Positions 3,751 through 43,982 of a DNA stretch of 64,000 bases are shown here, piece after piece. A program made the position numbers and the translations under genes. The DNA is from an uncultured Alphaproteobacteria bacterium (GTDB lineage Bacteria; Pseudomonadota; Alphaproteobacteria; UBA6615): the NCBI GenBank assembly GCA_943787445.1, contig CALSML010000017.1, positions 84,137 through 148,136 on the forward strand, written 5' to 3'. The notes below the pieces were generated by a model that had not been told where the DNA came from, did not search any database, and was given only the letters and a program-made list of their open reading frames with translations. Numbering within the stretch: position 1 is the first letter of the stretch; each line of letters opens with the position of its first letter.

Positions 3751-3820
3751 CCCATTGATCGCTGGCCTCTGCCAGTCTGCGGATGGGAGTATAGCCGAGC
3801 ATGAAAGCCGGGAGGAAATG

Positions 3821-4627: not shown

Positions 4628-5169
4628 CCGGGTTTCCCAGCTGTCGCCATCTTGGCAGACCACTCGGCGCGCGGCAGGAAGCCTTCTGTCTCGCGACACA
4701 TGCTTTCCGTCAGCGCAAGAATCTCGTCATTGCTCAGATCAAAGTCGAGATACTCACCAAAGGGCTGGGGCACATGGAACGGGGAATCGAGATAGACCTC
4801 AAGGTTGTTCCCCTCGGGATCGTCGAAATAGACCGACCAGGCATTGCCATGATTGCGCGGCAGCAGGTTCTCGACATTCCGCGCGACGACCCGGCGATAC
4901 ATGGTGCGCAACTCGTCGAGCGACTTCACCAGAAATGAGAGCTGATTGACGGTGCTCGGCACATCGGCCGGGCGACCCTCGGCAAGGATCACCTGATGAT
5001 GGATGGTCGGGTCATTGGACATGAAGGTGATGTGGCCGTTGTAGCGCGGCACAAAACCGCGATCAGACACATGGAAGCCCATCACGCCGGTGTAGAACTC
5101 TTCCATGCCTTCCATGTCACGTACCCATATCCCTGCATGGGTCAGAGTCGGCTTGATATCTTCACTCAT
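4624..5169 (-). CDS. VOC-family protein (extradiol dioxygenase/glyoxalase fold)
   Basis: A 181-residue vicinal-oxygen-chelate protein. It opens with the beta-alpha-beta module TLTHAGIWVRDM (His at about 11) and ends the fold with DPEGNNLEVY (Glu at about 129), two of the three usual metal ligands of ring-cleaving dioxygenases. The middle ligand position, normally His in a motif like NHxAF, reads VNQLSF here, so metal binding may differ. AGGAG upstream fixes ATG at 5169. It is the last gene of a minus-strand operon after an amidohydrolase and a CoA-transferase, which suggests a role in breaking down a cyclic or aromatic acid (inference). Confidence 0.78.
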   Translation of the reverse strand: MSEDIKPTLTHAGIWVRDMEGMEEFYTGVMGFHVSDRGFVPRYNGHITFMSNDPTIHHQVILAEGRPADVPSTVNQLSFLVKSLDELRTMYRRVVARNVENLLPRNHGNAWSVYFDDPEGNNLEVYLDSPFHVPQPFGEYLDFDLSNDEILALTESMCRETEGFLPRAEWSAKMATAGKPG

Positions 5170-5179
5170 AGAAAAACTC

Positions 5180-6385
5180 CTAGTCGTCTGACGCGACAAC
5201 GCCGTTCTCATGCAGAGCTTCAATGTCGTCTGCGCCATAGCCCAGATCTTCGAGAATCTCGCGGGTCTGGGCACCGACTTCCGGCGGGGCAACCGCAAAG
5301 GAACTTGGCGTCCGGCTTAGTGAAACCGGCTGACGAACGAATTTCATTTCACCCAGTGCTGGTGAAGTCAGCGGCTGTGCCAGCCCGAGATGTTCCACCT
5401 GCGGATCCCCAAACAACTCACCGATGTTGTAGATCGGACCACAGGGTACGCCGAGTTCATTGAAACTCTCCACCCACGCGGCGGTGGTTTTCGCTGCGAT
5501 GGCATCCCCGATCAGCCCGTTCAACCGATCCCGGTTTTCCGAGCGCGCCGGCGCATCCACGAAATCGGGATCGCTCATCCAGTCCTCCTGACCGAGCGCC
5601 CGGCAGAACCGGCCCCAGATCTCCTGTCCCGCCACCGCGATATTCATATGTCCATCCGCCGTTGCAAAAACCCCGGTCGGAATGCTCGTCGGGTGATTGT
5701 TTCCTGCCTGTTGCGGAACCTCCGCATCGACCAGCCACCGAGCGGACTGAAAGTCGAGCATGAAGGTCTGAGCCTCCAGCAGTGAGGTATAGAGCCACTG
5801 CCCCTTGCCAGATTTTTCCCGTTCCAGCAGTGCAAGCATCACGCCCTGAGCCGCGAACAGGCCCGCCGTCAGATCCGCAATCGGGATGCCAACCCGAACC
5901 GGTCCCTGTCCCGGCAGACCCGTGATCGACATCAGACCACCCATACCCTGGGCAACCTGATCGAAGCCCGGTCGTTTGGCGTAAGGGCCGTCCTGCCCGA
6001 AGCCTGAAATACTGGCAAGGATGATCCGCGGGTTGATCTCGGAAAGGGACTCATAATCGATACCCAGCCGGGTTTTCACATCCGGGCGATAATTCTCGAC
6101 CACCACATCGGCCTCCGCAACCAGACGGTAGAAGACTTCCTTGCCGGCCTCCTCCTTCAGATTGAGAGCCAGTGAGCGCTTGTTGCGATGCAGGTTCTGG
6201 AAGTCCGAGCCGTGACGGGCCCCGCCCAGCGACGCGCCACCCTCAACGGCTGGCGGCATCTCGACCTTGATCACATTTGCACCCCAGTCCGCCAGCTGGC
6301 GGACACAGGTCGGGCCCGAACGGACCCGTGTGAGGTCGAGCACCGTGATGTGATCAAGAACGGTAGCAGCAGGAATATGAGGCAT
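5180..6385 (-). CDS. CaiB/BaiF family III CoA-transferase
   Basis: Transfers CoA between carboxylic acids by a mixed-anhydride mechanism; 401 residues, normal for the family. The N-terminal segment LDLTRVRSGPTCVRQLADWGA matches the family start, HRNKRSLALNLK lies about residues 66-77, and the catalytic aspartate is Asp171 in GIPIADLTAG. The frame is open upstream to 6439, but that would overlap the end of the preceding amidohydrolase; ATG at 6385 fits the family N terminus. The gene lies between an amidohydrolase (6408-7376) and a VOC protein (4624-5169) on the same strand with gaps of 22 and 10 bases, so the three are probably one operon. The acyl substrate is unknown. Confidence 0.88.
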   Translation of the reverse strand: MPHIPAATVLDHITVLDLTRVRSGPTCVRQLADWGANVIKVEMPPAVEGGASLGGARHGSDFQNLHRNKRSLALNLKEEAGKEVFYRLVAEADVVVENYRPDVKTRLGIDYESLSEINPRIILASISGFGQDGPYAKRPGFDQVAQGMGGLMSITGLPGQGPVRVGIPIADLTAGLFAAQGVMLALLEREKSGKGQWLYTSLLEAQTFMLDFQSARWLVDAEVPQQAGNNHPTSIPTGVFATADGHMNIAVAGQEIWGRFCRALGQEDWMSDPDFVDAPARSENRDRLNGLIGDAIAAKTTAAWVESFNELGVPCGPIYNIGELFGDPQVEHLGLAQPLTSPALGEMKFVRQPVSLSRTPSSFAVAPPEVGAQTREILEDLGYGADDIEALHENGVVASDD

Positions 6386-6407
6386 CGGAAAACTCGCTTG
6401 GAACGCG

Positions 6408-7376
6408 TTAGAGTTTGAGCAAACGCCGGGCGTTGCCATTCAGGATTTTAGCCTTGTCCTCGGCATTGAGGTGCAGGCGCTCGATCCACTCCGTGCCCAG
6501 CGCGTTCGGCACAAACGGCCAGTCGACCGAGAACAGGATGCGATCCGCACCCATTTCCTGCAGCGAGCAGAGCATGGCCGGATCGGAAAAATTCCCGCTC
6601 GTGGTGATGTAGAAATTACGGCTGAACACCTCCCGGAAATTCATCGGCTTGTTGCCGGGTCGGGACAGGGCGTGATCGACCCGCCAGAGCAAGAAGGGCA
6701 GGCCTTCGCCGAGATGGCCGAGCATGATTTTCACATCCGGGTACTTGACCAGAACGCCGCTCAGGACCAGCCGGATGGCTTGGGTGGCGGTCTCCACCGT
6801 GAAGCCCCAGCCCGCGTTCAGAAGTGCAGGAAAATCGTCCACATAAGGCTGGTAGTATCTTTCAATGACCGTCGGATCCGGTGCAGCCGGGTGCATATAG
6901 AGCGGTACATCCAGCGCCTGAGCGCGCTCGAATACCGGCCAGAATTTCGGATCGTCGAAGAACACGCCATGGGTCAGGCCGTGCACCATCGCCCCCTTGA
7001 ACCCGAGCTTGTCGACACAGCGTTCCAGCTCATCGGCGCAGGCCTCCGGGTCCGGCGTCGGCAGATTGCCGAACGCGGCAAACCGGTCAGACCGCTCCGC
7101 GACAATTTCCTGCAACCTGTTATTGGCTGTCCGGGTGATCTCCGCTGCGCTGGAGGGATCAAGACGCTGAGTCGATGGCGCGCCGTGAGAGAGCACCTGA
7201 ATATCGATCCCGGCCGAATCCATTTCCGCAATCCGTTCATCGTAGAGATCTTCGAGCTTCGACCGTATCGCGCCTGCGCCGCCGGTCGCGTCGGTTCCCG
7301 CGTAATGAGCGACCAGTGCCGGGTCCCAGTAATGTTCCTCGATTGCAATAACTTCGTGACCGGATGGCGTGGCCAT
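6408..7376 (-). CDS. Amidohydrolase family 2 (ACMSD-like TIM barrel)
   Basis: A 322-residue metal-dependent hydrolase or decarboxylase of the amidohydrolase-2 family. Visible metal-site pieces are IEEHYW at about residues 12-17, YMHP at about 160, LGHLGEG at about 219 and the catalytic Asp in SVDWPF at about 286. Family members include ACMSD and gamma-resorcylate decarboxylase, so either hydrolysis or decarboxylation is possible. An AGGGGGAAGAG stretch precedes ATG 7376. It heads the operon with the CoA-transferase and VOC genes and diverges from the CocE-type hydrolase at 7637; the 260-base gap between them probably holds both promoters. Confidence 0.85.
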   Translation of the reverse strand: MATPSGHEVIAIEEHYWDPALVAHYAGTDATGGAGAIRSKLEDLYDERIAEMDSAGIDIQVLSHGAPSTQRLDPSSAAEITRTANNRLQEIVAERSDRFAAFGNLPTPDPEACADELERCVDKLGFKGAMVHGLTHGVFFDDPKFWPVFERAQALDVPLYMHPAAPDPTVIERYYQPYVDDFPALLNAGWGFTVETATQAIRLVLSGVLVKYPDVKIMLGHLGEGLPFLLWRVDHALSRPGNKPMNFREVFSRNFYITTSGNFSDPAMLCSLQEMGADRILFSVDWPFVPNALGTEWIERLHLNAEDKAKILNGNARRLLKL

Positions 7377-7636
7377 GTCTCTTCCCCCTGAAGAATATTT
7401 TTATGCCCGCGATGGTAGCGATAGGGTGCCCCATTACGAAAGTAAAGTTGCTCCACCGCAGCGCCCGGCCCCGCGTATTCTGTTATCCGGACAACGCAGA
7501 AAACCATATATCTTCGCTATCTCAGCCCAAAATCTTTTCCTATAGTGGAATTCTGCGCGTGCGCCATTTCACGTTCCGTGCCCGCCAAGGAGACCGGCCG
7601 AACACATAACGGCCGCCACGACTGGGAGGAAACATC

Positions 7637-9354
7637 ATGATTATTGAACGCGATTTACCCATCAAAATGGATGACGGCGTTGTCTTGCGCGCCGATGTCT
7701 ATCGACCTGATACCAAGGCGAAGGTGCCGATCGTCATGGCCGGCGGCCCTTATGGCAAAGGTGTGAAGTACCAGGAGCACTACAAACCGCTCTGGGACTC
7801 TCTGGTCAAAATGCATCCCGATATTCTTCCCGGTTCGAAGCATCAGTGGCTTACCTGGGAAACCGTCGATCCGGAAATCTGGGTCCCCTGGGGCTATGCC
7901 TGCGTGCGGCTCGATTCCCGCGGCGCCGGTCGTTCCCCCGGCTATCTGGATATCTTCTCGCCCCGCGAGACACAGGACTATGCCAATGCCATCGAATGGG
8001 CGGGCCAGCAAAAATGGTCCAACGGCAAGGTCGGCCTGAACGGCGTCTCCTACTACGCCATCAACCAGTGGCAGGTGGCCGCCCTGCAGCCCAAGCATCT
8101 CGCCGCAATGATCCCATGGGAGGGCGCGGCCGATCACTACCGCGACTGGGCACGCCATGGCGGGATCCTGTCCAACAAGTTCATGGAAATCTGGTTCCCC
8201 CGTCAGGTGGAAGCCGTCCAGCACGGCTATGCCATGGGTCCGAAGGATCACTGGATGGGTGAACGTGCGACAGGTCCGGCAAAGCTCTCCGCAGCTGAAC
8301 TCAAGGAAAACCGCGCCGACACGCTTGAGAACTTCCGCGTGCGCGAGATGGATGACGACTGGTACCAGTCCCGTTCACCAGACTGGGACAAGGTCAAGGT
8401 TCCGTTCCTGAGTCCTGCCAGCTGGGCCGGATTCGGCCTGCATCCCCGTGGCAATTTCGAAGCCTATACCCAGGCCGCCTCGAAGGAGAAATGGCTCGAA
8501 GGCCATCCGGGCCGCCACGAGGAATGGTTCTATCTGGAATACGGTATGGAGCTGCAGAAGCGCTTCTTCGACTATTACCTCAAGGGTGAGAAGAACGGCT
8601 GGAACAAGGAGCCGCGCGTCTGGATCAACCTGCGCCGACCATTCACGGATGAGGTGGAACTTCGCAAGGAAAGCGAATGGCCCCTCAAGGGCACCAAATG
8701 GACCAAGCTGTTCCTCGATTCAGGTGGCAAGGGCAAGCTCGACTGGAAAGCCCCCAAGGCCAAGCGTGGTAAGGAGTTCCGTGCCCTGACCCGCGGAATC
8801 ACTTGGCGTACACCGCCACTGGAACGGGAAACCGAGATCACCGGCCCGATGACGGCCAAGCTCTTCGTCTCCTCCACGACCGAGGATTGCGATCTCTTCG
8901 TCACCATGCAGGCCTTCTCGGACAAGGGGCGCGAAGTGCACTTCCAGGGCACCGTCGATCCCAAAACACCTCTGGCCCAGGGCTGGCTGCGGGTGTCCCA
9001 TCGCAAGCTCGATCCGGAGAAGTCCGAACCCTGGCGCCCCTATCACACCCATGACGACAAGCAGATGCTGATGCCGGTGAGATCTATGAGGTCGATGTGG
9101 AAATCTGGCCCCAGTGCATCGTCCTGCCCAAGGGCTTCCAGATTGCCCTGAACATTGCGGGACAGGATTTCGATCGTCCCGGACCTTCCGTGGAGGCCTA
9201 TGTCCCCTCACGCGGTTCCGGACCATTCCTGCACGATCATCCGACCGACCGACCGAAGGAAATCTTCGGCGGCAAGACAACGATCCACACCGGGCCGAAG
9301 CATCCGTCCCACCTGTTGCTGCCGATCATTCCGAAGAACCGGAAATCGATCTAG
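7637..9354 (+). CDS. CocE/NonD-family serine hydrolase, frameshifted near 9073
   Basis: Alpha/beta hydrolase of the X-Pro dipeptidyl-peptidase/cocaine-esterase type. The nucleophile Ser lies in NGVSYYAINQW (about residue 139), after the SRGAGRSPG loop, with the C-terminal jelly-roll domain (PPLERETEITGP onward). As given, the first frame ends at 9151 in nonsense after DDKQMLMP. Shifting at about 9073 restores GEIYEVDVEIWPQ and runs to 9354, giving about 572 residues, the family length. One G missing from a CCGGG run would explain it. GGGAGGA precedes ATG 7637. The reading is good on both sides of the shift, so this is either a read error or a very recent mutation. A strong terminator follows. 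Confidence 0.83.
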
Positions 9355-9374
9355 CTAACCGACAAACCAAGATG

Positions 9375-9401
9375 AAAGGGCGGCCCTGTGGCCGCCCTTT
9401 T
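9375..9401 (+). terminator. Rho-independent terminator after the CocE-type gene
   Basis: A perfect 11-base stem (AAAGGGCGGCC, 9375-9385) with loop CTGT and the matching arm 9390-9400, ending in a run of four T. It lies between the convergent CocE and MFS genes. The A/T flanks of the stem make it partly usable from the other strand too. Confidence 0.9.
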
Positions 9402-10571
9402 CTATGCGCCGCCGGTCGCGGCACGGCGGGCCGCCAGCCCGAGCAGAAGGGCAAGCACACAGACGAGTGACATGGCGTAGAAGGCATCGCCCCCCAGCGC
9501 GCCATACATCGCTCCTGCTGACAGCATGGCAATACCCATCACGACACCGGACACGGATGCATAGGTGCCCTGGGCCGACGCCTTAAGACCGTCGGGCGCG
9601 CGGGCGGCGATGAAATGCATGGTGGCCAGATAGGTGGCCCCGAACGTTGCGGCATGGAGCAGCTGGGCAACGATCAGCCCGGGCAGCGCCGTGGTTTCGG
9701 CGAGGATGATCCAGCGCACCAGCCCGGCGCCTGCCCCCAGACCGCAGCAGCCCGAACGGCCCCAGCCGCCGCACCACCGCACCACTTACGGAAAACAGGA
9801 TGATCTCGGCCACCACGCTGCCGCCCCACAGACAGGCGATCAGGGTTCCCGACAATCCGGCCTCGCGCCAGTGGATCACCGAGAACCCGTTCAACACCGC
9901 GTGACTGGCCTGCACGGCGCTGGCAGCCAGCACGAAATAGAGAAAGGCGCGGTCACGCAGGAGATCGAGGAACCCGCCTGTCGGCCGCCTCCCGGGCCGG
10001 CGCGTTCTGCTCGCGCAACAGCAACGTGGTCAGCAAGGACCAGCAGCAGGCCCGCAAACACCACCGGGACGATCACGTCCGGGGTGCGGTCCGTGAGCAG
10101 CCAGCCGGCCCCGAAGGTGCCGGCAATGAAGGTCGCCGAACCCCACAGACGAATGCGGCCGTAATCGAGCTTGTCGCGCACCACGGCGACCATGGTCTGG
10201 GAATCCCCCAGCGGAATCAGCACGTGATAGATCGGGGCGAAGATGATCGTCACAAGAACGATCAGCCAGAAAGGACTCGGCGAGGAAGAACCCGGAAAAC
10301 GCCACCACACTGATCGCGGCAAACAGCACCAGCGCGCGCTTTCCCGTGACCGGACCGGTCGACACCCGCGGGTGATCAGCGGGTCAGCAATCACCCGCAG
10401 CCACGGTCCGATGGCCAGGACCAGCCCGATCTGACCTGCATCCAGCCCCCGGCTCTTCAGCCAGACCGGCCAGAAGGGCAGCATCACGCCAAGCACCAGG
10501 AACAGCGCGCCGTAGAACGCAGCAAAACGCGCGGCAATACGAAAGGGTGTTTCGTTCACATAATCCGCCAT
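9402..10571 (-). pseudogene. MFS transporter (MFS_1-like), multiple frameshifts
   Basis: An inner-membrane transporter of the 3-phenylpropionate/nucleoside-transporter-like MFS branch, as shown by LDYGRIRLWGSATFIAGTFG in the middle and twelve predicted membrane segments spread over three frames. Reading starts at ATG 10571 (MADYVNETPFRIAARF), needs frame changes near 10370 and 10270, again near 10010-9970 and near 9745, and ends at 9402 with AARRAATGGA. Hydrophobic segments keep their family pattern in every piece, so the disruption is recent or artefactual. Total length (1170 bases) fits an intact 390-residue transporter. Its ATG sits directly behind the T run of the upstream gene's terminator. 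Function is not inferable beyond transport. Confidence 0.8.
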
Positions 10572-14577: not shown

Positions 14578-14681
14578 GGGCGCGCCTCCTCGTCATGTGC
14601 CTCAGTCCCCGGTTTTGATCCGTGGTTCAAGAAACAGTCTAGGAGATAAGCGCGCCCGCGAGAAGCCGAAGAGAAAAGCGC

Positions 14682-15566
14682 CTAGAACCCGTAAAACTTC
14701 GCCGGGTTGTCGACCATGATGCGCTGGCGCATCGCCTCGTCGGGCACCCACTGACCGAAGGCCTCGACCGGGTCGGCGTCGTTCGGGTTAACCTCATACT
14801 TGTTGGGATGCGGCCAGTCCGTGCCCCACATGACGTGGTCGGCATTGGCCTCGATCAGCGCGCGGGCCAGGGGCTGACAATCGTCATAGGGCGGCAGGTC
14901 GGTGGCGCTGACCCGATTAGCACCGGAAATCTTGATCCAGGTGTTTCCATCACGCATCAGCTTGAGCAGAGCCTGAAAGCCCTCGGCCTCCACACCCGCG
15001 GTGGCCGGCTGATAGGCAAAATGGCCGATCGACATCGGGGTCATCATCTTTTCGAAGACCGGCATCAGGGCGACGATGTCCTTGCCCGGAAACAGCCACT
15101 CGATGTGCCAGTTGAACGGCTTGATGCGTGCTTCCAGCTCGGGGATCGCATCAAGTTCCAGCGGCATGCCTCCCTTGTTGTCGATGTTCAGACGAACGCC
15201 GCGAATGCCCTGGGCATCCAGATCGGCAAGCTGCTCATCGGTGAAATCCATGGTCATGGCGCAGACGCCGCGCGCCCGGTTCGGCGTCTCGGCGTTCAGC
15301 GCATTCATGCCATCGAGAATGGCCGAATTGTCGACGCCATAGATCGACGGCTGGGTGAACACCACCCGGTCGATGCCAAGCGTATCATGGAGCTTCTTCA
15401 GCTCGGAGAGCGGCGAATCTGGCGGGGTGTAACCGCGGTCGGGAGACAGGGTGTAGTGGGAATCAAACACATGCACATGGGTGTCGATCGACCCCTTCGG
15501 CAGGGTGATGTTGGGTTTGCGCGGATTGCGGTCCGGTGCGATGCAGTCTCTGATTTCGTTGGCCAC
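14682..15566 (-). CDS. Amidohydrolase family 2 (LigI / lactone-hydrolase-like)
   Basis: A 294-residue TIM-barrel hydrolase resembling 2-pyrone-4,6-dicarboxylate lactonase and D-galactarolactone isomerase-type proteins. The first metal motif DTHVHVFD is at about residues 29-36, IGHFAY at about 181, and the catalytic Asp in WGTDWPHP at about 250. The frame is open to ATG 15590, but only GTG 15566 is preceded by a good ribosome site (AGGGGAAA), so I start there. It probably opens a lactone ring or hydrolyses a cyclic acid. It stands between the molybdenum-hydroxylase remnant and the DUF1194 gene with no tight coupling. Confidence 0.83.
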   Translation of the reverse strand: MANEIRDCIAPDRNPRKPNITLPKGSIDTHVHVFDSHYTLSPDRGYTPPDSPLSELKKLHDTLGIDRVVFTQPSIYGVDNSAILDGMNALNAETPNRARGVCAMTMDFTDEQLADLDAQGIRGVRLNIDNKGGMPLELDAIPELEARIKPFNWHIEWLFPGKDIVALMPVFEKMMTPMSIGHFAYQPATAGVEAEGFQALLKLMRDGNTWIKISGANRVSATDLPPYDDCQPLARALIEANADHVMWGTDWPHPNKYEVNPNDADPVEAFGQWVPDEAMRQRIMVDNPAKFYGF

Positions 15567-30958: not shown

Positions 30959-32474
30959 ATGTCAGATACAGCCTCCATGGCCATCCCGAGCCTCGAGCCC
31001 GATCCAGATGACGGCACGACTCTGCCCGAGCTGATCAATCTCCTCGTGGCATCCGGAGATCTCTTCTACGACTGGGATCTGGTGGACGACACCATGATCT
31101 GGACTGGCGATTATCCTGAATCCCTGAACATCCAAGAACATGGCACGCTGGATTCCGGCGATAGATTCCTGAGCCGCATCCATCCTGAAGACCTCCCGCA
31201 CCGCATGATTTCCATGTCCCGTCACCTCGAACGTGACGATGTGTTTGATCATGAATACCGTGTGCGCGACGACACCGGAAACTTCGTGTGGATTCAGGAA
31301 CGTGCCATCGCGACGAAATCGGGCAACGGCAAACCAAACCGTCTTACCGGCATTATTCGCAATGTGGATGCGCGCAAGAAATCGGAAGAGGAAGTTACCT
31401 TCCTATCCAATCATGATGCGCTAACAGGGCAATACAACAAATTGCGCCTGCGCGAGTCACTTGAACATGTGATTGCGCAAAGTCTTCTCACCCAGCAGCC
31501 GGGCGGACTTCTGCTGGTGGGGATCGACAAACTGAACGCCCTGTCCGACGTCTATGGTGAAGAATCCGCCGACACGATCGTGCTGGCAGCCGCACGCCGC
31601 ATCGAAACATCGATGCGCAGCGGTGACGTTGTGGGACGTGTCGGCTATGACAGGTTTGCGGTGATCGTCGAAAACTGCAGCCGCTCCAAGCTCACCATTG
31701 TCGCCGAGCGTTTTCTTTCGGCCATTCGGGACAACCCAATCGCGACACCCGCAGGCGCCATGACCATCACCGCCTCAGTCGGCATCTCGGTCTTCCCCGG
31801 CGATGCCAGCACAGCCCGTGATGTCGTGTCTCATGCAGACAACGCATTGCGCGCCGCGCGCCGGCTCGGCTGTGACTGCTATCTCGACTATATCAATGTC
31901 CCCGAACATGCCCGGACCGAGCGCCCGGAACTCGTGATCGCCGAGCAGGTCAAACAGGCCCTGAAGGAGGATCGCTTCAAACTCGCGTTCCAGCCTGTGG
32001 TTTCGGCCCGGACCGGAGACGTCGCGTTCTACGAGGGTCTGGCTGAAAACCCTGGAAGATCGTCTGCACAATCGGCGCGATCTGGCTTCGCGGCTCATTC
32101 TGGAGATCACCGAGACCGTGGCCCTGGACGATGTCGATGAATCTTCATGCTTCGTCTCATCCCTGACAAAATAAGGATGTCGCGTGGCACTGGATGACTT
32201 CGGCGCTGGCTTCACCTCATTCCGTCATCTGCGCGCCCTGAACGTGGCGATCGTGAAAATCGACGGATCCTTTGTCCGTGGCATCATCGAGAAGCCCGAA
32301 AACCTGCTTTTTGTGCGCACCATGATCAACCTCTCCAAGGGGATCGGCCTGAAATGCGCCGCGGAATGGGTCGAGAACGAAGACGAAGCCAAACTGCTTC
32401 TCGAAGAGGGTGTCGATTTCCTGCAGGGCTGGCACTGCGGCAAACTGGAAATCGATCCCGACTGGCTCCAGTGA
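30959..32474 (+). pseudogene. PAS-GGDEF-EAL protein with internal EAL deletion, frame change and stop
   Basis: Remnant of a cyclic-di-GMP signalling protein. A PAS-like domain (about residues 25-140) is followed by a GGDEF domain whose active site reads GYDRF instead of GGDEF, so cyclase activity is not expected. The EAL domain starts (LAFQPVVSARTGDVAFYEGL), then breaks at about 32042. Coding continues in the next frame as VWLKTLEDRL...ILEITETVALDD, meets TAA at 32172-32174, and resumes in the same frame as GCRVALDDFGAGFTSFRHL to 32474. About 60 family residues are missing between YEGL and VWLK. GGTCTG at the junction fits both sides. AGGAGGTG fixes ATG 30959. Confidence 0.8.
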
Positions 32475-33056
32475 TCAGCGGGACATTTCGTCCAGTTGGC
32501 GACGCAGTTTTTCGATCTGTGACCTGAGATCATCAAGCTTGTCGTCGGAGCCGCCGCCCGAAGCCGATGCGTCGTCTTGTGGCCTTGCCTCACTGGTGTC
32601 GCGCGGCGTGAACATCTGAAAAGCACGTTCAAACATCGCAAGATGCTGCCGACCCATATCTTCCCATTGATTGAACGGGAACAAATTGCGTCCGGCAGAG
32701 CCATCCACATATTCGCGCATGCGTTCCTGATTGCTCGAAAACGCATCCATCGAAGCTTCGAGATAGTTCGGCACCACGGATTGCAGACTGTCGCCATAGA
32801 ACTGGATCAACTGACGCAGGAAGGTAACCGGGAGCAGGTTCTCTCCCTTCGCTTCTTCCTCGAAGATGATCTGGGTCAGCACCGAGCGGGTGATATCATC
32901 CCCTGACTTGGCATCCACAACGACAAAATCGTCTCCGGCCTTGACCATGACCGACAGGTCATCGAGCGTCACATACTTGCTCGTGGACGTGTTGTAGAGC
33001 CGCCGATTGGCGTACTTCTTGATCGTTATGGGATCTTGTTTTTCTGAATCGGCCAT
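32475..33056 (-). CDS. phaR: Polyhydroxyalkanoate synthesis repressor PhaR
   Basis: DNA-binding regulator of PHA granule genes, 193 residues. The N-terminal PHB/PHA accumulation regulator domain ITIKKYANRRLYNTSTSKYV (residues 11-30) is diagnostic, followed by the LTQIIFEEEAKGENLLP segment at about 59-76. The C terminus is polar with a short coiled coil (LDDLRSQIEKLRRQL) as in other PhaR proteins. It is transcribed away from the phaE-like/phaC genes beginning at 33194, so the 137-base gap probably contains its operator. The stop abuts the stop of the EAL remnant. Confidence 0.95.
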   Translation of the reverse strand: MADSEKQDPITIKKYANRRLYNTSTSKYVTLDDLSVMVKAGDDFVVVDAKSGDDITRSVLTQIIFEEEAKGENLLPVTFLRQLIQFYGDSLQSVVPNYLEASMDAFSSNQERMREYVDGSAGRNLFPFNQWEDMGRQHLAMFERAFQMFTPRDTSEARPQDDASASGGGSDDKLDDLRSQIEKLRRQLDEMSR

Positions 33057-33193
33057 GATTTACGGCCCCAAATGTTGCTTCTGTTGCGTTACTATAGCAG
33101 ATCAGAAGCATTATGCTGCAACGCAACCTATGACGGACAATTCTTGCGATGCCGATGGTGCATCCGGTCCGGCGATGGCTATAGTCGTCGATC

Positions 33194-33616
33194 ATGAATG
33201 ACCAACCCGATTTCGCGAAGCTTGCGCGTCAATACCTGGACCTCTGGGAAGGTCAGCTGACCGCCATGTCGGCAGATCCGGACCTTGCCGAACAGAGCGC
33301 GCGCTTCTTCGAGGTGATGACCCAGCTCGGCAAGGACGTGAATCCGATGCTAACCGCCAATTTCGCCGAATTCCTCGACCGCGCACAAATGGGGACCCGC
33401 AATGCGCCAGACCCAACCTCCTCCGCTCCGGACCGGGCCGCGCCCCCTCCCGCTGCATCTGGCGACCGCGACAAATGGATGGATCAGCTCTCGCGCCGGC
33501 TTGCCGCTCTTGAGGAACGCCTCGACAAACTGGAGGCCGGAGGTCGCAAAAAAGGTGGCGGAACTAAAAGCCGCGCTCGGGCCAGGTCTCCAGCTCGAAA
33601 ATCGGGAACATCCTGA
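33194..33616 (+). CDS. Small PhaE-like / phasin-like protein upstream of phaC
   Basis: A 140-residue protein with an amphipathic helical N-terminal half (FAKLARQYLDLWEGQLTAMS, then ARFFEVMTQLG), a Pro/Ala linker, a short coiled coil (LSRRLAALEERLDKLE, about 101-116) and a Lys/Arg-rich tail. The class III PHA synthase needs a partner, PhaE, with comparable helical and coiled-coil layout, and this gene directly overlaps the synthase start in another frame by about 60 bases. A PhaE-like or phasin role is therefore likely, but the sequence similarity I can see is weak. Confidence 0.65.
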   Translation: MNDQPDFAKLARQYLDLWEGQLTAMSADPDLAEQSARFFEVMTQLGKDVNPMLTANFAEFLDRAQMGTRNAPDPTSSAPDRAAPPPAASGDRDKWMDQLSRRLAALEERLDKLEAGGRKKGGGTKSRARARSPARKSGTS

Positions 33617-34655
33617 TTCCGCGGACCCTTTCGCCGCGGCGGTGGACCGGGAAATTCACGCACGCCTGACGGCATTTTCTGACGGCATTCAGTCTTATCG
33701 CGATCACCCCTATCAACGCGAACTGGCCGAACCACCCGTCATCTGGTCCGATGGTGCCACCCGGTTGCTTGATTACGGACCCGAGGATGGCACCCCAGTG
33801 CTGTTCATCCCGTCCCTGATCAACCGCGCCTATATTCTCGACCTCTCAGAACGCCGATCCCTGCTGCGATGGATGGCGGCGGAAACCGGTTTGCGCCCCC
33901 TGCTGGTGGATTGGGGGGTCCCGGGAGACGCTGAACGTAAATTCTCACTGACCGACTATATTGCTGGCCCGCTGACAGGAGCGCTGGCCCATACACGATC
34001 CCTGTCCGACCGGGCCGTACCGGTTGTTGGCTATTGCATGGGCGGCTTACTGGCCCTTGCGCTCGCAGCGCTGAAGCCCGGCGATGTGACGGGGCTTGTT
34101 CTGATGGCAACCCCCTGGAACTTCCACGCGGAACGGATTGCCCAGGCCGAAGCACTCGCCCGCGCCGTGGAAGCTGGCAGCCCGCTTCTCGATGCCTATG
34201 GGGAGCTGCCGGTCGACATCATCCAATCCCTGTTTTCAGCCCTCGACCCGTTCCTCGTGACCCGAAAGTTCATCGACTTCGCCCGAACCGACCCTGCAAG
34301 CGAGGCGGCAGAGGACTTCGTCGCGCTGGAAGACTGGCTCAATGACGGGGTGCCGCTCTCCGGACCGGTCGCGCATGAATGCATGGGCGGCTGGTATCGC
34401 CGCAACACCCCGCACCGGAACGCATGGCGCGTCGGGGACACCGATATCATACCTCGGAACATCGACACACCCGCGCTCGTGCTGGTGCCACAACGCGACC
34501 GGATCGTCCCCCCGGCCTCGGCGCATGCGCTGGCCGAAGCTCTGCCCAATGCGGAATGTCAGAACCCACCGCTGGGGCATATCGGCATGGTGGCGGCCTC
34601 GCGGGCTCGGACCGATGTCTGGGAACCGATGGCACTCTGGCTACGCGGGCTCTAG
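33555..34655 (+). CDS. phaC: Poly(3-hydroxyalkanoate) synthase-like alpha/beta hydrolase (class III size)
   Basis: Polymerises hydroxyacyl-CoA into polyester. The 366-residue length matches class III PhaC. The lipase-like box carries a cysteine nucleophile, Cys161 in GYCMGG, with Asp315 in QRDRIVPPAS and His342 in PLGHIGM completing the triad; FIPSLINRAYILDL and VDWGVPG are typical PhaC segments. The start is GTG 33555 inside the preceding gene, with GGAGG upstream; an open frame extends back to 33402 but no better start is seen. phaA and phaB follow on the same strand, and phaR is divergent. Confidence 0.82.
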   Translation: MAELKAALGPGLQLENREHPDSADPFAAAVDREIHARLTAFSDGIQSYRDHPYQRELAEPPVIWSDGATRLLDYGPEDGTPVLFIPSLINRAYILDLSERRSLLRWMAAETGLRPLLVDWGVPGDAERKFSLTDYIAGPLTGALAHTRSLSDRAVPVVGYCMGGLLALALAALKPGDVTGLVLMATPWNFHAERIAQAEALARAVEAGSPLLDAYGELPVDIIQSLFSALDPFLVTRKFIDFARTDPASEAAEDFVALEDWLNDGVPLSGPVAHECMGGWYRRNTPHRNAWRVGDTDIIPRNIDTPALVLVPQRDRIVPPASAHALAEALPNAECQNPPLGHIGMVAASRARTDVWEPMALWLRGL

Positions 34656-34789
34656 CCGGGCATATGCTGGACTCTGGATTGTCGGAGGGTTATATCCAAA
34701 CCAACGTCTAAAACTGACGGATTTGAGGGGTTTTGGCGCAAATATGGCGCGTCCCGAACCAACAAATTCCGCACCACAGGAGAGATAGT

Positions 34790-35965
34790 ATGTCGGATGT
34801 CGTGATCGCCGGAGCCACCCGGACCCCTGTCGGCGCCTTCAATGGTGCCCTGTCCAGCCTCACAGCAGCAGAACTTGGCACCGTGGCCATTCAGGCTGCG
34901 CTCGAGCGTTCGGGCATTCCGGCCAGCGACGTGGATGAAGTCGTCCTCGGTCAGGTCCTCACAGCCGCCACCGGCATGAACCCGGCGCGACAGGCGCTTC
35001 TGGCGGCAGGCATTCCCGAAGATCGCACCGCCTATCTGGTCAATCAGGTCTGTGGTTCCGGCCTGCGTTCGGTTGCCCAGGGCTATCAGGCCATCAAGCT
35101 CGGCGAAGCTGGCGTGGTCGTGGCCGGCGGTCAGGAAAGCATGAGCCAGTCGCCACATGCCTCGCAGATGCGCAACGGCACCAAGATGGGTGACGTCAAA
35201 ATGGTCGACACGATGATCAATGATGGTCTGTGGTGCGCCATGATGGGCTACCATATGGGCAACACGGCCGAAAACGTGGCCGGGCAGTGGCAGATCACCC
35301 GCGACGACCAGGACGAGTTCGCGGCTGGCTCCCAGCAGAAAGCTGAGGCGGCCCAGAATGCGGGGCGCTTCAATGACGAAATCACCGCCGTGACCATTTC
35401 CGGCCGCAAGGGCGACACCGTGGTCGAAGCCGATGAATATCCACGCCACGGCACCACGACCGAAACGCTCGGTAAGTTGCGCCCTGCCTTCAGCAAGGAC
35501 GGCACGGTCACCGCGGGCAATGCTTCGGGCATCAATGACGGTGCGGCCGCGATTGTCCTGACCTCCTCCGACGAAGCCGAACGCCGCGGCCTCAAGCCGC
35601 TCGCCCGGATCGCCTCATGGGCCACCGCCGGTGTCGAGCCCTCCGTTATGGGTTCGGGGCCGATCCCGGCCAGCCGCAAGGCGCTGGAGCGCGCCGGCTG
35701 GACCGTTGATGATCTCGATCTTGTCGAGGCCAATGAAGCCTTCGCGGCGCAGGCCATCGCGGTCAATCGCGACATGGGCTGGGATCCGGAGATCGTCAAC
35801 GTCAATGGCGGTGCCATTGCGATCGGACATCCGATCGGCGCGTCGGGTGCACGGGTGCTCGTGACCCTGCTGCACGAAATGGAAAAACGCGATGCCAAGA
35901 AGGGTCTCACCACCCTGTGCATCGGCGGTGGCATGGGTATCGCCATGTGCATCGAACGGAACTAG
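34790..35965 (+). CDS. phaA: Acetyl-CoA C-acetyltransferase (thiolase)
   Basis: Condenses two acetyl-CoA into acetoacetyl-CoA, the first step of PHB synthesis. 391 residues. The acyl-carrying cysteine is Cys88 in [10 protein letters not shown]; the C-terminal base His is in [11 protein letters not shown] (about 347) and the second active Cys in TLCIGGGMG (about 377). NEAFAAQ at about 315 completes the thiolase signature. AGGAGAG precedes ATG 34790. It lies between phaC and phaB on the same strand (134- and 78-base gaps), so it belongs to the PHA locus. Confidence 0.94.
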
Positions 35966-36043
35966 CCGGGGAACGTCCACCACAACGGTCCGGAATGTGT
36001 ACTCGGCAGAGGTGCCACCAGACCATCAAATATGGAGAGTATG

Positions 36044-36766
36044 ATGGGTCGAGTGGCATTGGTAACCGGCGGCACCCGGGGTATCGGAGCGGCGATCAGC
36101 CGCAACTTACGGGACGCGGGTCGTGACGTCATAGCGGCATATGCTGGAAACGAGCATGCCGCGAAGGAATTCGAAGAAAACACCGGCATCAAGACTGTCA
36201 AAGTAGACGTCTCGAACTTTGATCAGGTCCACGAGGCCGTGACAAAGATCAAAACGGACATGGGGCCGGTCGAGATTCTGGTGAACAACGCGGGCATCAC
36301 CCGCGACAGCACGATGCACCGGATGAGCTTCGAGCAGTGGAAGGACGTCATCGACACCAATCTGTCCGGCGTCTTCAATTGCTCCCGCGCCGTGATCGAG
36401 GACATGCGGGAACTCAACTTCGGACGCATCGTCAATATCGGCTCGATCAATGGTCAGGCTGGCCAGTACGGTCAGGTCAACTACGCCGCCACCAAATCCG
36501 GCATTCACGGCTTCACGAAGGCCCTTGCCCAGGAAGGCGCTGCAAAAGGCATTACGGTAAATGCCATCGCACCGGGTTATGTGGACACGGACATGGTCCG
36601 TGCCGTACCGCCTGAGGTGCTGGAAAAGATCGTTGCCCGTATCCCGGTGGGACGCCTCGGACAAGCCGATGATATCGCACGCGGCGTGCTCTTTCTGACC
36701 GCCGACAATGCTGGCTTCATCACCGGATCGACCCTGTCGATCAATGGTGGTCAGCACATGTACTAG
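36044..36766 (+). CDS. phaB: Acetoacetyl-CoA reductase
   Basis: NADPH-dependent reduction of acetoacetyl-CoA to (R)-3-hydroxybutyryl-CoA. SDR of about 240 residues with TGGTRGIG near the N terminus, NNAGITRD, the catalytic Ser in NIGSINGQAGQYGQ and Tyr147-Lys151 in YAATK. GITRDSTMHRM and the QAGQYGQVNYAA stretch are typical of PhaB rather than FabG. The start is uncertain among ATG 36032, 36041 and 36044; GGAGAG at 36034-36039 favours 36044. It closes the phaC-phaA-phaB run. Confidence 0.92.
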   Translation: MGRVALVTGGTRGIGAAISRNLRDAGRDVIAAYAGNEHAAKEFEENTGIKTVKVDVSNFDQVHEAVTKIKTDMGPVEILVNNAGITRDSTMHRMSFEQWKDVIDTNLSGVFNCSRAVIEDMRELNFGRIVNIGSINGQAGQYGQVNYAATKSGIHGFTKALAQEGAAKGITVNAIAPGYVDTDMVRAVPPEVLEKIVARIPVGRLGQADDIARGVLFLTADNAGFITGSTLSINGGQHMY

Positions 36767-39102: not shown

Positions 39103-40137
39103 TCACTCGGCGGCGATCGCCTTTTTCAGGTAGTCCCGGTCGAGTAGCTCGGCGATCTGTACCGTGTTGAGGGCCGCACCCTTGCGCAGATTGTCGGAGA
39201 CCACCCAGATGTTGAGACCATTCTCGATGGTCGCATCCTCGCGGATCCGGCTGACATAGACCGCGTCCTCACCGGCGGATTCCTCCGGCGTCACATAGCC
39301 TTCATTGGCGCGATGATCGATCACCGACACGCCCGGTGCGTTGCGCAAAATCTCGCGCGCAGCCTTGGCCGAAACCTCCTGAGAGAACTGGATATTGACC
39401 GCTTCGGCATGACCAATGAACACCGGCACACGCACACAGGTCGCCGTGACCTTGATCTTGGGATCGAGAATCTTCTTGGTCTCCACCATCATCTTCCACT
39501 CTTCCTTGGTGGACCCGTCATCCATGAAGACGTCGATATGGGGGATCACATTGAACGCGATCTGCTTGGTGAACTGCTTCGGCTCGATGGGGTCGTTCAC
39601 ATAGACGGCCCGCGTCTGATTGAAAAGCTCATCCATGGCGTCCTTGCCGCCACCCGAAACCGACTGATAGGTCGAGACGACCACCCGCTCGATACCAAAA
39701 GCCTCGTGCAATGGCTTGAGCGCGACCACCATCTGGATCGTCGAGCAGTTCGGATTGGCGATGATATTGCGCTTGGTGTAACCGGCCGCATCACCCGGGT
39801 TGACCTCGGGCACGATCAGCGGCACATCCGGGTCCATGCGGAACTGGGATGTGTTGTCGATCACGATACAGCCCTTGGCAGCCGCCTTGGGTGCGAATTC
39901 CGCCGAAATCGACGAACCCGGCGAGAACAGGGCGATATCGGTCCCGGTGAAGTCGAAATCGGCAAGCGACTGCACTTTCAGAATGGTTTTTTCCCCGAAA
40001 GACACTTTCCGTCCGATCGAGCGTTCGCTCGCCAGTGCAACCACTTCATCCGCAGGGAACTCGCGTTCCGCCAGCGTCTGCAGCATTTCGCGACCGACAT
40101 TGCCCGTCGCACCAACCACCGCAACCTTGTAACCCAT
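39103..40137 (-). CDS. asd: Aspartate-semialdehyde dehydrogenase
   Basis: NADPH-dependent reduction of aspartyl phosphate to aspartate semialdehyde, leading to lysine, threonine, methionine and diaminopimelate. 344 residues. GATGNVGREML at residues 9-19 binds NADP, the nucleophile is Cys131 in NPNCSTIQM, and the C-terminal RVPVFIGHAEAVN holds the substrate Arg and catalytic His (about 243-250). It lies on the same strand as the downstream ferredoxin-like gene and below a methyltransferase gene; asd next to leuB/C/D is a common alphaproteobacterial order. Confidence 0.96.
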   Translation of the reverse strand: MGYKVAVVGATGNVGREMLQTLAEREFPADEVVALASERSIGRKVSFGEKTILKVQSLADFDFTGTDIALFSPGSSISAEFAPKAAAKGCIVIDNTSQFRMDPDVPLIVPEVNPGDAAGYTKRNIIANPNCSTIQMVVALKPLHEAFGIERVVVSTYQSVSGGGKDAMDELFNQTRAVYVNDPIEPKQFTKQIAFNVIPHIDVFMDDGSTKEEWKMMVETKKILDPKIKVTATCVRVPVFIGHAEAVNIQFSQEVSAKAAREILRNAPGVSVIDHRANEGYVTPEESAGEDAVYVSRIREDATIENGLNIWVVSDNLRKGAALNTVQIAELLDRDYLKKAIAAE

Positions 40138-40235
40138 GGGTCCTATCCTTGTTCCCCCGGCGCGCCATGCATCGAGTGCGGCGATGACTTAAGCCCCAAA
40201 TGCCGGTTTTGCAAGATTTTCGGGCAGATTTCCGC

Positions 40236-41039
40236 TCAGGCCCGTGTGGCGATCAGGCTCACATAGTTCATGAAACCGTAAAATGCCCCGATCTCGATCC
40301 GCCGGTGACATTCGACGACCAGCGCATCCCGCATCGCCACATCAATGCGACCCCACTGATACATGTAGAGAGCACCACGCTCGGTCCAGCCCTTGGTCAG
40401 AGCCGGCGTGGTGGTTTCCAGATGCCCGTGGCTGCGAGCTGCCTGCGGCGCAAATCCGGCCTCGATCAGAATCTGAGGCAGACGCCGGACGAGCCACTTG
40501 TCATGGACATTGCCTTTGACAAAGGCATTGATACAGGCCTGCAGCGGGTCTGCATCGGAGGTGGCCACACTCATGGTGCTGAAATCACCATCATAGATCG
40601 CCACGCATCCACCCGGCCTGAGTACCCGATGCACTTCGCTCAGAACCCCGTCCGGTCCCGGCACATGGGTAAGCAGAGTGTGGAGCACGACCACGTCGAA
40701 GCTGCCATCCGCAAAGGGCAGTTCGCGCGCATCGGCCTGTTGAAACGACAGGTTGGGAATCTCCGCCGCCAGCTCGCGGGCGCGCTCAAGAAACGGTTCG
40801 AGCTGGTCCACCCCGACCACCTCGCGTACCCCCGGCCAGCCCGCCAGCCGCCGAGCCTGGGGGCCGGTGCCACAGCCAATGTCGAGCACCCGTGCACCTT
40901 CTGGGAAATCCACATCCGAGAGATAGGATGTCAGGGCCGCACTCTGCTGTGGCGTGGCCGCACGTCGTTCCAGACTGTGTTTGATCTCTTCGACCACCGC
41001 GGCCGGAATGGCCTCCGGGTTCACGTAAATATCGGGCAA
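40236..41039 (-). CDS. Class I SAM-dependent methyltransferase
   Basis: A 267-residue methyltransferase with the seven-strand fold. Motif I is LDIGCGTGPQARRLAG (about residues 45-60), followed by the acidic strand end VVGVDQLEPFL, motif II DVVVLHTLLTHVPG and motif III LRPGGCVAIYDGD. The family resembles UbiE/COQ5 and Methyltransf_11 proteins; substrate unknown. There is no ATG near the expected start; TTG at 41039 is preceded by GAGGAG, so I use it. It diverges from the Mpo1-like gene (47-base gap) and lies about 100 bases upstream of asd. Confidence 0.82.
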   Translation of the reverse strand: MPDIYVNPEAIPAAVVEEIKHSLERRAATPQQSAALTSYLSDVDFPEGARVLDIGCGTGPQARRLAGWPGVREVVGVDQLEPFLERARELAAEIPNLSFQQADARELPFADGSFDVVVLHTLLTHVPGPDGVLSEVHRVLRPGGCVAIYDGDFSTMSVATSDADPLQACINAFVKGNVHDKWLVRRLPQILIEAGFAPQAARSHGHLETTTPALTKGWTERGALYMYQWGRIDVAMRDALVVECHRRIEIGAFYGFMNYVSLIATRA

Positions 41040-41086
41040 TTTCGTCTCCTCGCATTGACGGGAACATTTGTGCCAGAATTCTGACC

Positions 41087-41446
41087 ATGGCCGAACGTTT
41101 TTCCAGCTATGCCGAGTTCTGGCCCCATTACCTGCGCGAACATTCCCGGCCGCGCACACGGTCCATCCACTATGCCGGCACCATAACCGCATTGCTGCTG
41201 CTGGCCATTGGCGTCGTCTCCGGACCCTGGTGGCTTCTAGTCATTGCTCCCTTCGCCGGATACGGACCGGCCTGGATCGGACATATGTTCATCGAACACA
41301 ACCGGCCGGCCACCTTCACCCATCCGGTCTGGTCCTTGCTCAGCGATTTCCGCATGTTGTTTCTGTGGCTCACCCTGCGTCTCGAAGCAGAACTCAGAGG
41401 CGCCTGTGTCCCAGGCACAGTGCATGGTTCCCCTGACCCAGACTGA
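41087..41446 (+). CDS. Mpo1-like (DUF962) membrane protein
   Basis: A 119-residue protein of the DUF962/Mpo1 group, named for the yeast dioxygenase that takes part in alpha-oxidation of 2-hydroxy fatty acids. It has the family pattern FWPHYLREHSRPRTRSIHYAG with conserved His residues, two hydrophobic helices (about 31-62), and GHMFIEHNRPATFTHPVWSL, which holds further conserved His. These His residues are the proposed iron ligands. ATG 41087 lies right after a TTCTGACC stretch; no strong ribosome site. The end overlaps the lipoprotein gene by 23 bases. Confidence 0.82.
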   Translation: MAERFSSYAEFWPHYLREHSRPRTRSIHYAGTITALLLLAIGVVSGPWWLLVIAPFAGYGPAWIGHMFIEHNRPATFTHPVWSLLSDFRMLFLWLTLRLEAELRGACVPGTVHGSPDPD

Positions 41447-41864
41447 TCCGGCGCGGCCACACCGGAAACGCCGACCGGTCTGCTGGGCACTCGCTCTGCT
41501 CCTGACTGCCTGCGCCAACAGCCCGCCGGACAACGCACTGATCGGCGACTGGCAGGTCAATCTGCCGACAACCCCACGCGCCCATGGCAACATCATCGGA
41601 TTCCGCAAAGCCTGTCTGATTGTGCGCGGCAACTGGTTCGATATCCGGGTCGCCCGGCCCATCACCTATCTGGCCAACGGCGCGCAGCTCTCGGTCTGGT
41701 ACGGACCGCCTGCCGGGGAGGTACATCCCAATCCGGCGTTGGCCGCACGGGTCACCTTTCTGGCGCCGGACCGCATACGCGTGGTCTGGCCGGAAGGCTT
41801 CGTCGCCGACTACATGCGGACGCTGGGCACACAGGCATCAAATCGAGATTGTCGGGTGCGCTAG
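41424..41864 (+). CDS. Putative lipoprotein
   Basis: A 146-residue hypothetical protein with an N-terminal lipoprotein signal: positive RPHRKRR, hydrophobic core ALALLL, lipobox LTAC with Cys at about residue 30. The mature part (GDWQVNLPTTPRAHGNI, then AQLSVWYGPPAGE) is beta-rich without a recognised domain. Start ATG 41424 lies inside the end of the Mpo1-like gene; the open frame reaching to 41244 is antisense-like there and lacks a start that would place the signal peptide properly. Its end overlaps the convergent gene at 41861 by four bases. Confidence 0.65.
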   Translation: MVPLTQTDPARPHRKRRPVCWALALLLTACANSPPDNALIGDWQVNLPTTPRAHGNIIGFRKACLIVRGNWFDIRVARPITYLANGAQLSVWYGPPAGEVHPNPALAARVTFLAPDRIRVVWPEGFVADYMRTLGTQASNRDCRVR

Positions 41865-42166
41865 CTGCCCGGACGCGGGGGAAACACCAAGGGGGACTGC
41901 GCCGTCTGGCCGGGCTTCGAACGGGCCAATGCAGCATTGAGAAATGCGTTGAGTCGCGTGCGGGTCTCAGCCTTGCCCGCGGCTTCGCCATCCTGGATCG
42001 CGGTCAGCATGGCTTCACTCACCGCGCAATTGCCGCCGGCAACATGCTTGCCCGTGGACGTTTCCACGATCTGCTGTGCCTGTGACGGCACCGCCAGAAA
42101 GGCCATGCCACACACGGTCAGGGCTGCACCAAGCAAACGCAAAATCCATCTCCACTGGTGAAACAT
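41861..42166 (-). CDS. Small exported protein of unknown function
   Basis: A 101-residue protein starting MFHQWRWILRLLGAALTVCG with a signal peptide cleaved near AVPSQAQQ (about residue 31). The mature 70 residues include HVAGGNCAVSEAMLTAIQDGE and a helical Ala/Arg stretch; one Cys only. I do not recognise a family. A start at ATG 42190 would add eight residues before the signal peptide and is less natural. It lies 34 bases downstream of leuB on the same strand. Confidence 0.6.
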   Translation of the reverse strand: MFHQWRWILRLLGAALTVCGMAFLAVPSQAQQIVETSTGKHVAGGNCAVSEAMLTAIQDGEAAGKAETRTRLNAFLNAALARSKPGQTAQSPLVFPPRPGS

Positions 42167-42199
42167 CAACGCTAGAACAGGGCCCGACACTGCGTCAAA

Positions 42200-43315
42200 T
42201 CACGCAGACAGGCGGTCGAGTTCCTGCAACAGCTTGGTGCCCATTTCCTCGGTTGTGACCTGGGTGCAGCCATCCTGCATGATATCGCCTGTGCGATAGC
42301 CCTCATTGAGGACGTTCTGCGCGGCTTTTTCGACCATGTCGGCTTCGGTGCCGAGATCGAAGGAATAACGCAGCATCATCGCAAAGCTCAGCAGCATGGC
42401 CAGCGGATTGGCCTTGCCCTGACCGGAAATATCCGGGGCCGAACCGTGGACCGGCTCATACATGGCACGACGTGCGCCCGTCACCGGGTCTTCGGCACCC
42501 AGACTGGCCGAGGGCAGCATGCCAAGCGAACCGGTCATCATGGCCGCTTCGTCAGATAGGATATCGCCGAACAGATTGTCCGTGACTATTACGTCGAACT
42601 GATGGGGATCGCGCAGCAGCTGCATGGCGCAGTTGTCGGCCAGAATGTGCTCGAACTCCACATCGGGATATTCTTCGGCGGCAACGCGACCGGCGATTTT
42701 CCGCCAATAGGCCCCGGTCTCCATGACATTGGATTTCTCGGCCGAATGCAGCTTGTTGTTACGTTTGCGTGCCAGCTCGAATCCCACCCGCAGAACCCGG
42801 ACGATTTCGTCCTCAGTGTAGGACTGGGTGTCGACCACCCGGGTCGTGCCATCTTCCAGGGTCTGCTCACCACGGGGCTCGCCGAAATAGACGCCCGATG
42901 TCAGCTCCCGCAGGATCATGATGTCGAGACCCTTGACCACTTCAGGCTTCAGGGTCGAGGCGTCCACCATGGCATCCATGACGATGGCCGGACGCAGATT
43001 GGCAAACAGGTCGAGATCCTTGCGCAGACGCAGCAATCCCGCCTCCGGGCGGTGTTCGCGCGGCACATCATCCCATATCGGACCGCCCACGGCACCGAAC
43101 AGGACCGCATCCAGGTTCATCGCCTTGTCCATGGTCTCATCGGTGATCGAAACACCATGCGCGTCATAACAGGCGCCGCCGACGAGCTCCTCATCGACCG
43201 CGAAGGACACAGCTTCCTTGGCCTCGAACCAGCCCATCACACGCTGGACCTGTTCCATCACCTCGGGTCCGATGCCATCACCCGGCAGGACCAAAACACT
43301 CTTGTTGGCGGGCAT
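42200..43315 (-). CDS. leuB: 3-isopropylmalate dehydrogenase
   Basis: NAD-dependent oxidative decarboxylation of 3-isopropylmalate, third step of leucine synthesis. 371 residues. [13 protein letters not shown] near the N terminus, the substrate Arg segment [15 protein letters not shown] at about 96-110, FGEPRG, and the metal-binding [15 protein letters not shown] (about 245-260) are all present, as is the NAD-binding [16 protein letters not shown]. Members that use isocitrate or tartrate lack this exact combination. It follows leuD by 36 bases in the minus-strand leu block. Confidence 0.96.
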
Positions 43316-43351
43316 GAACCCCTCCCCTTTTAAAACGTGTTGGGGCGTCGC

Positions 43352-43972
43352 TTACGACGCATCCCGATACAGCCAGGGCTGCTGATTTTTCTGACCACCC
43401 TCAAAACCGCCGATCGTATCGCCGCGTTTCATGGTCAGGCCGATGTCATCGAGCCCATCGAGCAGGCATTCCTTGAGGAACGGATCAATCTCGAACGGAT
43501 AGACAATCCCGTTGGGGGCATAAACTTCCTGCTTTTCCAGATCGACGCTGATCTCGGGGTTTTCCGGATCACTGGCGACGAGCATCAGATTGTCGATCTG
43601 TTCCTGAGGCAGCTTGATCAGCAACATGCCGTTCTTGAAACTGTTGTTGTAGAAAATATCGGCAAAGGTCGGCGCGATCACCACCTTGATCCCGAAATCC
43701 TGCAACGCCCAGGGCGCATGTTCGCGCGACGAGCCACATCCGAAATTGTCGCCGGCGATCAGGATTTCCGCATTGGTGTAGGGCTCACGATCGAGCACGA
43801 AATCACCCGACGGCTTGCCGCTCTCATCCGTGCGCAGTTCATAGAACAGGCCCTTGGCCAGCCCCGTGCGCGCAATCGTCTTGAGGAACTGCTTGGGGAT
43901 GATCTTGTCCGTGTCGATATTGACCATCGGCAGCGGCGCGGCAACACCCGTAACCTTGTTGAACTTTTCCAT
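43352..43972 (-). CDS. leuD: 3-isopropylmalate dehydratase small subunit
   Basis: Swivelling-domain subunit of isopropylmalate isomerase, which converts 2- to 3-isopropylmalate with LeuC. 206 residues. VNIDTDKIIPKQFLKT near residues 18-33, GDNFGCGSSREHAPWAL at about 69-85 and NNSFKNGMLLI are diagnostic. The ATG at 43972 is preceded by AGGAG; an in-frame GTG farther upstream is not needed. An RDD membrane gene separates it from leuC, which is unusual since the two subunits are normally adjacent. Confidence 0.96.
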   Translation of the reverse strand: MEKFNKVTGVAAPLPMVNIDTDKIIPKQFLKTIARTGLAKGLFYELRTDESGKPSGDFVLDREPYTNAEILIAGDNFGCGSSREHAPWALQDFGIKVVIAPTFADIFYNNSFKNGMLLIKLPQEQIDNLMLVASDPENPEISVDLEKQEVYAPNGIVYPFEIDPFLKECLLDGLDDIGLTMKRGDTIGGFEGGQKNQQPWLYRDAS

Positions 43973-43982
43973 CACGCAACTC

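Follow-up and report, generated by a model that had tools for sequence, protein, structure and literature searches.

Enzymes of c-di-GMP signalling are known to have been lost in host-associated Campylobacterota, namely Helicobacter and Campylobacter (PMC9239204), and to be strongly reduced in Opacimonas immobilis, a streamlined and non-motile marine bacterium (PMC12844025). The losses described here resemble those of such reduced or specialised lineages in that diguanylate cyclase and phosphodiesterase genes were removed and motility genes were absent, FlhA having no match in genomes G000-G004. They differ from the Helicobacter/Campylobacter and Opacimonas immobilis cases in that intermediates (fresh pseudogenes and remnants) were still visible in this genus, and in that at least two losses fell within one genus of uncultured Alphaproteobacteria.

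The window, by which we mean the whole stretch of 64,000 nucleotides analysed, corresponds to G000:C17:84137-148136 in an assembly of 2.63 Mb in 29 contigs that is about 89% complete (G000). Its sister genome is the metagenome-assembled genome (MAG) Alphaproteobacteria bacterium SI073_bin183 (G003); the yidC-argB tree gave the topology ((G000,G003),G001), placing G001 outside this pair. The remaining members of the genus are likewise uncultured Alphaproteobacteria MAGs. We consider it highly probable that the window holds an ordinary recent pseudogene, in which a PAS-GGDEF-EAL gene was killed by a 188-bp deletion at a short repeat as one step in a wider loss of c-di-GMP signalling. That pseudogenes of this sort arise by deletion between short direct repeats is textbook knowledge; a literature search on short-repeat pseudogenes in bacteria returned nothing useful.

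Layout of the pseudogene and its intact relatives

The features of the locus, in window coordinates, were as follows.

30959-32474, plus strand: PAS-GGDEF-EAL pseudogene, start ATG at 30959
30959..32140, plus strand: remaining open frame of the pseudogene, 393 aa (ORF list, Pfam)
32037..32044, plus strand: deletion junction GTCTGGCT with one repeat copy left, 188 bp absent relative to G003 (two-sided alignment to G003; alignments to G003 and G002)
32037..32474, plus strand: downstream (3') portion of the EAL coding sequence, out of frame with the upstream (5') portion (translation VWLKTLEDRLHNRRDLAS..., EAL profile positions 97-235)
32172..32174, plus strand: second lesion, an in-frame TAA at the position of residue 468 of the G003 protein, which is Leu or Phe in relatives (sequence, alignments)
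32184..32474, plus strand: GTG-initiated residual ORF, 96 aa, EAL profile positions 150-235 (ORF list, Pfam)
32475..33056, minus strand: phaR-type PHB accumulation regulator, an intact neighbour (Pfam PHB_acc_N; synteny)

The 393-aa frame was native for residues 1-359 and ran on into an out-of-frame tail, and a Pfam search of it recovered PAS_3 at 62-133, GGDEF at 150-304 and positions 2-35 only of the EAL profile. Profile searching thus found the EAL domain split into positions 2-35 and 97-235 in two frames with one internal TAA, and no complete single-frame EAL domain (profile positions about 2-236) was present in the window gene. Translation read YEG(L) in the frame of the ATG at 30959 but VWLKTL... 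in that of position 32037, which bears out the two frames of the preliminary description. The EAL catalytic set (Glu, Asn of NxS, DD and Lys) was also incomplete: by G003 numbering, E359, DD475-476 and K496 remained merely as sequence, and N413 was gone. The residual ORF at the 3' end has no functional EAL domain.

The nearest intact orthologue was that of G003, a stop-free open frame of 595 codons whose protein was 88% identical over its N-terminal 361 residues. This identity, together with gene order kept over 18 kb, identified the window gene as a pseudogene of the PAS-GGDEF-EAL family; synteny of the phaR neighbour was kept with G003, G001 and G004. Intact copies were found in four other genomes of the genus (G003, G002, G004 and G005) and in other genera of the family. 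The window gene shares with the PAS-GGDEF-EAL composite phosphodiesterases of Alphaproteobacteria the domain order and EAL catalytic motifs of its intact relatives, but differs from them in lacking EAL codons 360-422 and in carrying a stop. The GGDEF motif had the degenerate form G-F/Y-D-R-F in the aligned relatives (GFDRF; GYDRF in the window). Because this motif is degenerate and the EAL catalytic residues are complete in the intact relatives, the ancestral protein was, judging from its motifs, probably a c-di-GMP phosphodiesterase.

Adjoining the pseudogene, an intact polyhydroxyalkanoate cluster occupied window positions 32475-36766, comprising phaR, a small PhaE-like ORF and PhaC-like, thiolase and reductase genes. 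A plasmid collection searched with the pseudogene DNA gave no match.

The 188-bp deletion and its flanking repeat

Alignment to G003 showed a single gap at 32036/32037 of exactly 188 bp, that is, 62 codons plus 2 nt, and a single deletion therefore gives both the loss and the change of frame, as had been proposed from the sequence before the intact relatives were aligned. The segment lost corresponds to codons 360-422 of the G003 protein, which agrees with the earlier estimate of about 60 missing residues and includes the EAL motif asparagine N413.

The preliminary description had correctly placed the junction GAGGGTCTGGCTG at 32033-32045, had taken GGTCTG within it to be a sequence shared by both flanks, and had suggested a comparison with an intact relative. 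When this comparison was run, the missing segment was indeed bordered by a repeat at either end in G003, but the repeat was GTCTGGCT / G[A/T]CTGGCT, at 32037-32044 in the window; it reaches further 3' than GGTCTG, whose first G is not common to G003. The flanks of the missing piece in G003 were GGACTGGCT on the left and CGTCTGGCT on the right, 188 bp apart, forming a direct repeat of 6 exact bases, or 7/8 with one mismatch at a wobble position of the left copy. In the two-sided alignment, GTCTGGCT of the window matched the left flank GACTGGCT at 7/8 and the right flank GTCTGGCT at 8/8. The corresponding flanks in G002 were GGTCTCGCC and GGTCTGGCTG, and both motifs were equally spaced in 6/6 relatives tested (G003 and five more).

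Homology of this extent exceeded chance. Among all possible deletions of 60-600 bp simulated in the G003 gene, 0.18% had at least 6 exact bases of junction homology, and a 7/8 match was reached by 0.29% of random junctions, so that a junction this good arises by chance in about 0.2-0.3% of random junctions in the gene. With the repeat at both flanks in the undeleted relative and one copy at the junction, the locus resembles pseudogenes formed by short-direct-repeat deletion (replication slippage or microhomology joining), whose endpoints lie at a 6-8 bp repeat with one copy kept, and such endpoints were seen at three junctions of G000. It differs from them in nothing essential; the repeat in G003 is imperfect, as expected after divergence. 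The pseudogene is a well-resolved case of a known kind.

In our reading, one 188-bp deletion between two G(A/T)CTGGCT copies removed codons 360-422, including N413, and shifted the frame, and the junction suggests misalignment at the short repeat in replication or repair as the most likely mechanism. Hairpin-assisted deletion was rejected, the DNA fold of the deleted segment being barely better than that of shuffles (z -1.2). The TAA had been described as a separate lesion at 32172-32174; it lies there, and all relatives compared have Leu or Phe at that position. This stop at residue 468 is independent of the deletion and would alone be enough to truncate the EAL domain.

Age of the inactivation and competing readings

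Between the window and G003, dN/dS was 0.059 over the full gene and 0.033 over its 3' fragment, with dS about 0.9. Most of the divergence thus built up under selection, and the 3' fragment past the break is still marked by strong purifying selection; the gene was therefore inactivated recently, late on the window branch. In this fragment, three otherwise invariant residues had changed on the branch to the window, compared with none on the branch to G003.

The 5' part has remained open, and its dN/dS against G003 is also low (0.04-0.10), as it would be if a truncated 393-aa PAS-GGDEF protein were still made and kept for sensing or regulation, with no EAL activity. We regard such retention as unlikely: since the dead 3' part has an equally low dN/dS, the low value of the 5' part reflects the time before inactivation, and the GGDEF motif is degenerate in every relative aligned. 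Among the matches listed, the truncated form was absent except in G008, where the copy is itself interrupted by stops.

Still less probable is an assembly artefact, in which a short overlap led to two contigs being joined across the missing 188 bp while the organism itself has an intact gene. Poor sequence in places, and a tract that is probably chimeric, do occur on other contigs of the assembly; against this, the pseudogene itself contained no stray or 1-bp indels relative to G003, the surrounding synteny was kept, an unrelated second lesion (the TAA) lay in the same gene, and another c-di-GMP locus, in clean sequence, was lost at a junction of this type. An overlap of 6-8 bp is, moreover, below what assemblers normally use. 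Recoding by ribosomal frameshift and stop readthrough, for which the recognisable and conserved state of both halves might speak, has a negligible chance of restoring a working protein, because the DNA lacks 63 codons, among them that of the conserved asparagine N413, and no decoding event can restore the EAL domain.

Two stretches of the G000 assembly were suspect. Around G000:C15 41870-43970, dense 1-bp insertions relative to G003, mostly of C or G, break dapE and later genes, and the sequence here seems error-rich rather than decayed. On C18, identity to G003 rose from 82-87% elsewhere to 98% in a 4.4-kb tract (39599-43974) whose only differences lay near its ends; DNA of the sister species may have entered this tract by recent exchange or by a chimeric join. 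On the same contig, a uvrD/pcrA-like helicase gene (positions 3800-6080 of the segment G000:C18:32000-46000) was in two frames with stops, through decay or sequence error. Because of these low-quality stretches on C15 and C18, not every broken gene in G000 is trustworthy; breaks within them were counted as unproven, and the apparent uvrD and dapE pseudogenes were left out as evidence, the dapE stretch looking error-rich.

Other c-di-GMP loci in the source genome and its relatives

The pseudogene belongs to a broader loss of c-di-GMP signalling, which also proceeded by short-repeat deletions and in parallel in a related species. Four GGDEF loci and three EAL genes were counted in G003, against two GGDEF matches and two EAL halves in G000. 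The EAL halves of the pseudogene were the only EAL found in the about 89%-complete G000 assembly, which besides the pseudogene has just one other GGDEF, a damaged one; no intact GGDEF gene was found in it, one locus lying at a messy join.

In G003, an operon between argB and a HAD gene (3420-9597 of the locus examined) encodes an uncharacterised protein, a DUF2336 protein, a PAS-GGDEF protein and a PAS-EAL protein. It was intact in G003 and G009, and was removed from G000 by two deletions with the 6-bp junction repeats ATGGGC and CGTGAA (in G003), leaving two pieces of the PAS-EAL gene. The diguanylate cyclase gene at G000:C4:64465 had lost 48 bp of its GGDEF domain in frame, between two Leu-Ser codon pairs, and also carried a TAG. 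Its copy in G003 (G003:C175, GGDEF 14643-15097) carried a 1-bp frameshift in the GGDEF motif, and decay of this cyclase may have begun in G003 too. The C18 diguanylate cyclase of G000 was without its GGDEF domain but was cut at a messy join adjoining the tract 98% identical to G003, and was downgraded as a further clean loss. The expected locus of a transmembrane EAL protein, which we take to resemble TipF, would fall past the end of contig C9 in G000. A canonical HD-GYP protein, its HD and HHExxDGxGYP motifs intact, was still present in G000, and no PilZ was found in this genome.

Several c-di-GMP signalling genes have been lost from the G000 species by similar deletions, the pseudogene being one of them. 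That c-di-GMP synthesis has been lost completely is not proven, because the C18 cyclase lies at a messy join and the TipF-like EAL locus at a contig end; from the genes found, we infer that c-di-GMP may be absent from the living cell.

In G001, which is a second species of the genus, no GGDEF, EAL, PilZ or HD_5 match was detected. The argB-HAD operon was cleanly gone there, with its flanks 18 bp apart compared with 6.2 kb in G003, and the pha locus retained a decayed 33-codon remnant of the PAS-GGDEF-EAL gene. The genes are still present in G003 and the breakpoints are not the same in G000 and G001, which makes independent loss of the c-di-GMP genes in these two genomes most likely. GGDEF and EAL domains were also absent from the genus g2 genomes G006 and G014 and from G012.

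With some reserve, we incline to the view that repeated deletions at short repeats have brought the G000 species midway through a complete loss of c-di-GMP synthesis, and that a second species of the genus has, in parallel, already finished. The value of the pseudogene lies in being one well-dated stage in how a second-messenger system was taken apart, step by step and in parallel, in uncultured aquatic or marine Alphaproteobacteria. Its deletion junctions, like those of the other loci, are still readable, and the intermediates allow one to ask in which order signalling genes are lost after flagella are gone.

A literature search on DUF2336 with GGDEF returned nothing useful. The DUF2336 operon between argB and the HAD gene was lost as a block in several lineages, and DUF2336 may be functionally tied to c-di-GMP.
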